This document shows positions 26,312-34,206 of a stretch of 64,000 nucleotides of DNA, in pieces. The notes beneath the pieces are model-generated. The model worked only from the letters and a program-made list of their open reading frames with translations. It searched no databases and was not told where the DNA came from. Numbering within the stretch: the first letter of the stretch is position 1; every line of letters begins with the position of its first letter. The stretch is from Marivivens sp. Its GTDB lineage: Bacteria > Pseudomonadota > Alphaproteobacteria > Rhodobacterales > Rhodobacteraceae. The stretch covers positions 17,937 to 81,936 of the forward strand of contig JAURFB010000001.1 of the NCBI GenBank assembly GCA_030827165.1, written 5' to 3'. A program made the translations under genes and the position numbers.

Positions 26312-26677
26312 TCAGGCGTGGCAGCCGTAGTATTCAACGATTGCCGCCAGATCCTGTGGGTCGGTCTCCGAGCGGACGAGCGTGCGGGCGTTGGCGCTGG
26401 CGGCAAACAGCATGCCGGCGGAAAAGAATGTCGAATCAGACACAAAGACCAGATTGGTCTGAGGTTGCCGGAGGCGCGCATAATCGGCGATGCCCAGGGT
26501 GCTGGAGTGGCCATCGAGGACGAGGTTCATGAGAATGACTTGGTAGATACTCGCGCCGATGGCGCTGGTCGCCTGGCCCGCGTTTTCCGCAAGATCAACC
26601 TTGTGACCGTGCCTTTCCAGATGACGCTGCCAGAGCCGGCCGAGCTCGGCCTTGCTCTCGACAATCAGGATATGCAT
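26312..26677 (-). CDS. Single-domain response-regulator receiver-like protein with non-canonical acidic pocket (pseudo-receiver)
   Basis: MHILIVESKAELGRLWQRHLERHGHKVDLAENAGQ...VILMNLVLDGHSS; Asn at the phosphoacceptor position. Confidence 0.8.
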   Translation of the reverse strand: MHILIVESKAELGRLWQRHLERHGHKVDLAENAGQATSAIGASIYQVILMNLVLDGHSSTLGIADYARLRQPQTNLVFVSDSTFFSAGMLFAASANARTLVRSETDPQDLAAIVEYYGCHA

Positions 26678-26753
26678 CGAACCCTCACGCTTCTGCGCTA
26701 CCGCACAATTTGAACTGTGCAAGACCCCCGTAGTCCTCACTCCGCCGATTTCC

Positions 26754-26769
26754 TTAATGAATGATTAAC
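26754..26769 (-). promoter_or_regulatory. Candidate CtrA box upstream of the pseudo-receiver gene
   Basis: GTTAATCATTCATTAA on the minus strand (TTAA-N7-TTAA; one mismatch to TTAACCAT-N3-TTAA). Confidence 0.5.
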
Positions 26770-26878: not shown

Positions 26879-27250
26879 ATGACAACCTGGATTACCATCT
26901 GCGACACCTGCAAGCGCGAGGGCTGGGACGCCACCGCCATGGAACAGACCGACGGCGAGGCTTTTGCCGCGTTGATCGAGCCGCGCGCCGAGGCCGCGGG
27001 GATCAAGACACGACGGGTTTCCTGCACGATGGGCTGCGAGCGGGCCTGCAATGTGATTGTGCAGGGCGCGGGCAAGAATTCCTACTCGATGGGCCGCTTT
27101 GAGCCGACCGAGGAAGACGCAATGGCGCTTGTCGAATATGCGGTGAAGCACGCGGCCAGCGAAAAGGGCCAGGTTCCGTTTCGGGAATGGCCTGTGGGCG
27201 TGAAAGGGCACTTCATTTCGCGCCATCTTCCGTTGCCGGACGCCGAGTAA
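26879..27250 (+). CDS. DUF1636 family protein
   Basis: MTTWITICDTCKREGWDATAMEQTDGEAF, VSCTMGCERACNVIVQGAGKNSYSMGRFEP. Confidence 0.88.
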   Translation: MTTWITICDTCKREGWDATAMEQTDGEAFAALIEPRAEAAGIKTRRVSCTMGCERACNVIVQGAGKNSYSMGRFEPTEEDAMALVEYAVKHAASEKGQVPFREWPVGVKGHFISRHLPLPDAE

Positions 27251-33846: not shown

Positions 33847-33969
33847 AGATATGGCGGGTTTTGGCCGCATCGATCCCGCGCACCGGCGAAATCCCGCGCC
33901 GTTTCAGCGCTGTGGCCTGTCGGAATCGGCCTTGACGGCAAAGGCACCCGCGGGCGACAAGGAAAGGGC

Positions 33970-34161
33970 ATGGTTCCCCGTGACGGGCGCAAAGCGCTTG
34001 GGGATGAAATGGGAATGCGGTGAGGGTAGATCCAGGCAGGAGACCCGAGTCCGCAGCCGCCCCCGCGACTGTATGCGGCGAGCGGATGCCAACGAGGCCA
34101 CTGGGAAACCGGGAAGGCAGGCATCGCGCGACGACCCGCAAGCCAGGAGACCGGCCTTGCA
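33970..34161 (+). ncRNA. Cobalamin riboswitch upstream of cbtB
   Basis: GGGAATGCGGTGAGGGTAGATCC...GCAGCCGCCCCCGCGACTGTATGCGG...GCCACTGGGAAACCGGGAAGGC...AGCCAGGAGACCGGCC (B12 box). Confidence 0.93.
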
Positions 34162-34206
34162 CGTGCAACCGAAATCCCCGTCGGGTGTGACGGGACAGGA
34201 GACAAG

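Follow-up and report, generated by a model that had tools for sequence, protein, structure and literature searches.

The window, by which we mean the whole 64-kb stretch of Marivivens DNA that was analysed, carries on its reverse strand a small gene whose start codon is the ATG at 26677, together with a CtrA-type site and a gene that diverges from it. The features at the locus are the following.

26312..26677, minus strand: very probable osp ortholog, encoding a 121-aa single-domain pseudo-receiver with Asn51 (open reading frame, translation, Pfam, ortholog panel and AlphaFold fold)
26681..26690, minus strand: probable ribosome-binding region GTGAGGG, just 5' of the ATG (sequence reading and Marivivens orthologs)
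26754..26768, minus strand: CtrA-type site TTAATCATTCATTAA, located 76 bp before the osp ATG (sole strict match in the window; conserved among orthologs)
26879-27250, plus strand: DUF1636 gene, divergent from osp

The GTGAGGG before the ATG is kept in all Marivivens orthologs. Downstream of osp lie a small DUF6732 gene and a gene for a CbiX cobaltochelatase. Elsewhere in the window a cobalamin riboswitch is found at 33954-34173 on the plus strand (108.4 bits), in surroundings rich in cobalamin biosynthesis genes.

The 121-residue protein is a degenerate receiver. Pfam Response_reg matches residues 3-114 with 27.9 bits, just below the 30.2-bit cut-off, and the AlphaFold model, built from an alignment of 33 sequences, has the alternating (beta-alpha)5 fold with a pLDDT of 87.9. 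Foldseek matched this model to many solved receivers, among them Spo0F, PhoP and CheY-like receivers, with TM values of 0.8-0.85. The residues that support phosphorylation are lost: the acidic pair is replaced at positions 7-8 by Glu7-Ser8, the phospho-Asp position is Asn51, and no conserved Lys is found after beta-5 (none near 101-104). The initial annotation had described a receiver pattern that lacks the acidic pair and a clear Lys and has Asn at the phosphoacceptor position, and this is confirmed here. Residues 84-91 (window 26405-26428, minus strand) read FFSAGMLF in the Marivivens protein, whereas nearly all orthologs have FFSDGSIF, a patch that ranks among the most conserved of the family.

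The TTAA-N7-TTAA motif that had been noted about 80 bp upstream on the same strand is indeed present, 76 bp before the ATG, and it is the only strict match in the 64-kb window (26754-26768), where 0.02 would be expected. At the density seen in the genome (7 in 2.39 Mb), an upstream region of 200 bp would be expected to hold about 0.0006 strict sites. Marivivens relatives have TTAACCATTCATTAA, TTAACCATTCGTTAA or TTAATCATTCGTTAA at the position equivalent to TTAATCATTCATTAA. Conservation of the motif among orthologs had been proposed as a check: the strict form occurs within 200 bp upstream of 52 of the 112 orthologs for which upstream regions were available, far above dinucleotide shuffles of the same regions (mean 0.45, maximum 3), and a relaxed form is found upstream in 75 of 112 (1.9 in shuffles). 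In these 112 orthologs no strict form occurs in the 200 bp that follow the gene or within its first 200 bp, and the ortholog sites are concentrated 70-110 bp before the start. Even the relaxed site is absent upstream of 37 of the 112, so CtrA control is not universal. The orientation of the CCAT half-site was tried as evidence of direction and is uninformative (19 with osp, 16 against and 17 ties).

These features closely resemble those of Osp from Rhodobacter (Cereibacter) sphaeroides (RSWS8N_09785), a single-domain, non-phosphorylated receiver-like protein (Vega-Baray 2022, PMC9430884). The phospho-position of that protein is residue 51 (Asp51), and it too has neither the acidic pair nor the conserved Lys. 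A CtrA site lies 54 bp upstream of its gene, compared with 76 bp in Marivivens, and its expression is CtrA-dependent. Osp binds the transmitter domain of CckA and at equimolar ratio directly inhibits CckA autophosphorylation, while the phosphatase activity stays intact; as CckA is the kinase that activates CtrA, induction of osp by CtrA closes a negative feedback loop. Osp engineered to carry D51N is functional in R. sphaeroides and still represses swimming, and the protein is widely distributed in Rhodobacterales (PMC9430884), the order to which Marivivens belongs. Later publications retain the same view of Osp. The window protein shares the single receiver-like domain, the phospho-position at 51 and the loss of the acidic pair and Lys; its gene shares the upstream CtrA-type site, and the CckA-ChpT-CtrA relay is present in the Marivivens genome. 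It differs in having a natural Asn51 instead of Asp51, in its altered FFSAGMLF loop and in its gene neighbours (DUF1636 and cobalamin genes in Marivivens, a TetR gene in R. sphaeroides). Because D51N works in R. sphaeroides, we have not counted Asp51, which the window protein lacks, as defining Osp. We are highly confident that the window gene is osp, an identity assigned by the match to the published features and by family distribution and not by sequence alignment.

The family survey gave matches at E ≤ 0.001 in 212 of 298 sampled family genomes (about two thirds), the weakest of which may be other receivers; the strong matches are mostly short single-domain frames. This spread is in line with the distribution published for Osp. 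Marivivens and Rhodobacteraceae MAGs were the nearest named relatives (88-94% identity) in one scan of named genomes, whose matches were all of Marivivens type. When a named plasmid-borne ortholog was sought, the sole match was an unrelated receiver in Herpetosiphon. The ortholog panel comprises 114 loci, giving 114 aligned rows and 112 upstream regions. At position 51, 90 rows have Asp, 22 have Asn and 2 have Ser, which leaves about a fifth without Asp51. The 22 Asn rows include two duplicates, one being the window's own locus and the other a second copy of one Marivivens genome, and after their removal Asn51 stands at 20 of 112. On a poorly resolved 112-row tree built without that column, position 51 has changed state at least 15 times. 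Two acidic residues at 7-8 are retained in seven of the 114 rows, and not one of the 114 has Asp51 along with both the acidic pair and Lys.

The initial annotation had named orthologs with the canonical Asp as counting against its claim. Such orthologs do form the majority, yet the claim is not refuted by them: throughout the family the acidic pair and Lys are degenerate, and the R. sphaeroides protein is unphosphorylated despite its Asp51 and tolerates D51N. We would put at somewhat under an even chance the combined proposal that repeated loss of the phospho-Asp reflects phosphorylation independence throughout the family and that the Marivivens FFSAGMLF form may have shifted affinity for CckA. 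The loop change is one through which the strength or the partner of Osp could differ.

Several other identities were weighed against Osp. The length and single-domain layout of the window protein resemble those of CpdR and DivK, which are likewise single-domain receivers of the CtrA pathway, and CpdR is its best NCBIfam match. That match is very weak (30.6 bits, where the cut-off is 180), and we rejected the CpdR/DivK identity; unlike Osp, these proteins are phosphorylated and have a full active site, whereas the acidic pair, Asp51 and Lys are jointly missing here. Nothing exceeds the CpdR cut-off in 13 related genomes, where the best matches are the receiver domain of CckA, and no DivK-like single-domain protein is found among the receivers of the host genome (82% complete). 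Loss of DivK has been reported for Rhodobacterales. A CpdR-type or DivK-type receiver under phosphorylation control is thus very improbable. FixT of Caulobacter and Sinorhizobium (PMC7078487) is closer in its mode of action, since it shares with Osp the role of a receiver-like feedback inhibitor that blocks kinase autophosphorylation without being phosphorylated itself. Its target is FixL, however, and Caulobacter FixT binds an Fe-S cluster through four Cys; the window protein has a single Cys, most orthologs have 0-2, and the site upstream of the window gene is of the CtrA type. We rejected an identity with Caulobacter-type FixT on the missing four-Cys motif, which is peculiar to the Caulobacter protein and whose absence is accordingly partial evidence, and we hold a FixT-like receiver with an Fe-S cluster and a FixL-type kinase as the target of its inhibition to be just as implausible as CpdR or DivK.

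The remaining alternative accepts the CtrA-type site and assigns it to the divergent DUF1636 gene (26879-27250), with the receiver gene as a bystander. The site does lie between the two genes, some 110 bp from the DUF1636 start, and DUF1636 adjoins osp in 36 of 112 loci. However, the strict site is found as often in loci without an adjacent DUF1636 gene (36 of 76) as in loci with one (16 of 36), and the spacing between the site and osp is tightly conserved. The independence from DUF1636 adjacency led us to reject DUF1636 as the owner of the site, and we give this arrangement hardly any more credence than the two preceding identities.

The host assembly (2.39 Mb, 82% complete) encodes ChpT; its CtrA gene is truncated by a contig end and adjoins SciP, and CckA is split over two contig pieces with its H-box intact. 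Seven strict TTAA-N7-TTAA sites occur genome-wide: upstream of osp, of ctrA, of a luxR-luxI pair, of a PAS-domain protein, of a PAS_5 protein that is weakly similar to MopJ and of a glycosyltransferase-like gene, and in one unassigned place. As seven does not exceed a reversed control pattern (7 against 12 per strand), support comes from the location and conservation of the sites and not from their number. The site upstream of luxR-luxI (L136:1501; G000:C58:9110) suggests, as a prediction from the motif, CtrA control of quorum sensing in the host. Another precedes the PAS-domain protein, about 45 bp before its likely start (L138:1501; G000:C64:9748). This protein may be the short DivL; the label is inferred, and no family model identified the protein as DivL.

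With osp as the identity of the gene, we suggest that phosphorylated CtrA would bind the predicted TTAA-N7-TTAA site and activate osp. Osp, with a receiver fold that cannot be phosphorylated, would dock on the hybrid kinase CckA at its transmitter (DHp/CA) region and block autophosphorylation of the kinase; less phosphate would then pass through CckA and ChpT to CtrA, closing a negative feedback loop. We regard this mechanism as a whole as very likely in a Marivivens-like host. The predicted receiver fold, the lost phosphorylation residues, the conserved CtrA-type site and the relay proteins in the genome support it here. By analogy with R. sphaeroides, we infer that transcription of osp in Marivivens would depend on CtrA, that Osp would inhibit CckA directly and that its natural Asn51 would function as D51N does.

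A phosphorylation-independent receiver under CtrA control was thus correctly anticipated, with support from family conservation and the published work on Osp, but its description as an undescribed regulator is wrong, as the protein is already known from R. sphaeroides (PMC9430884). What is new, and absent from the main text of that paper, is that Asn51 occurs naturally, that it has appeared repeatedly in the family and that Marivivens has an altered loop, FFSAGMLF. These points open no new system and are useful for understanding how a kinase can be inhibited by a receiver that is itself dead. The natural Asn51 versions are an evolutionary parallel to the engineered D51N result, and Marivivens is a further genus that supports the view that CtrA damps its own output by inducing a receiver-like protein that inhibits CckA.
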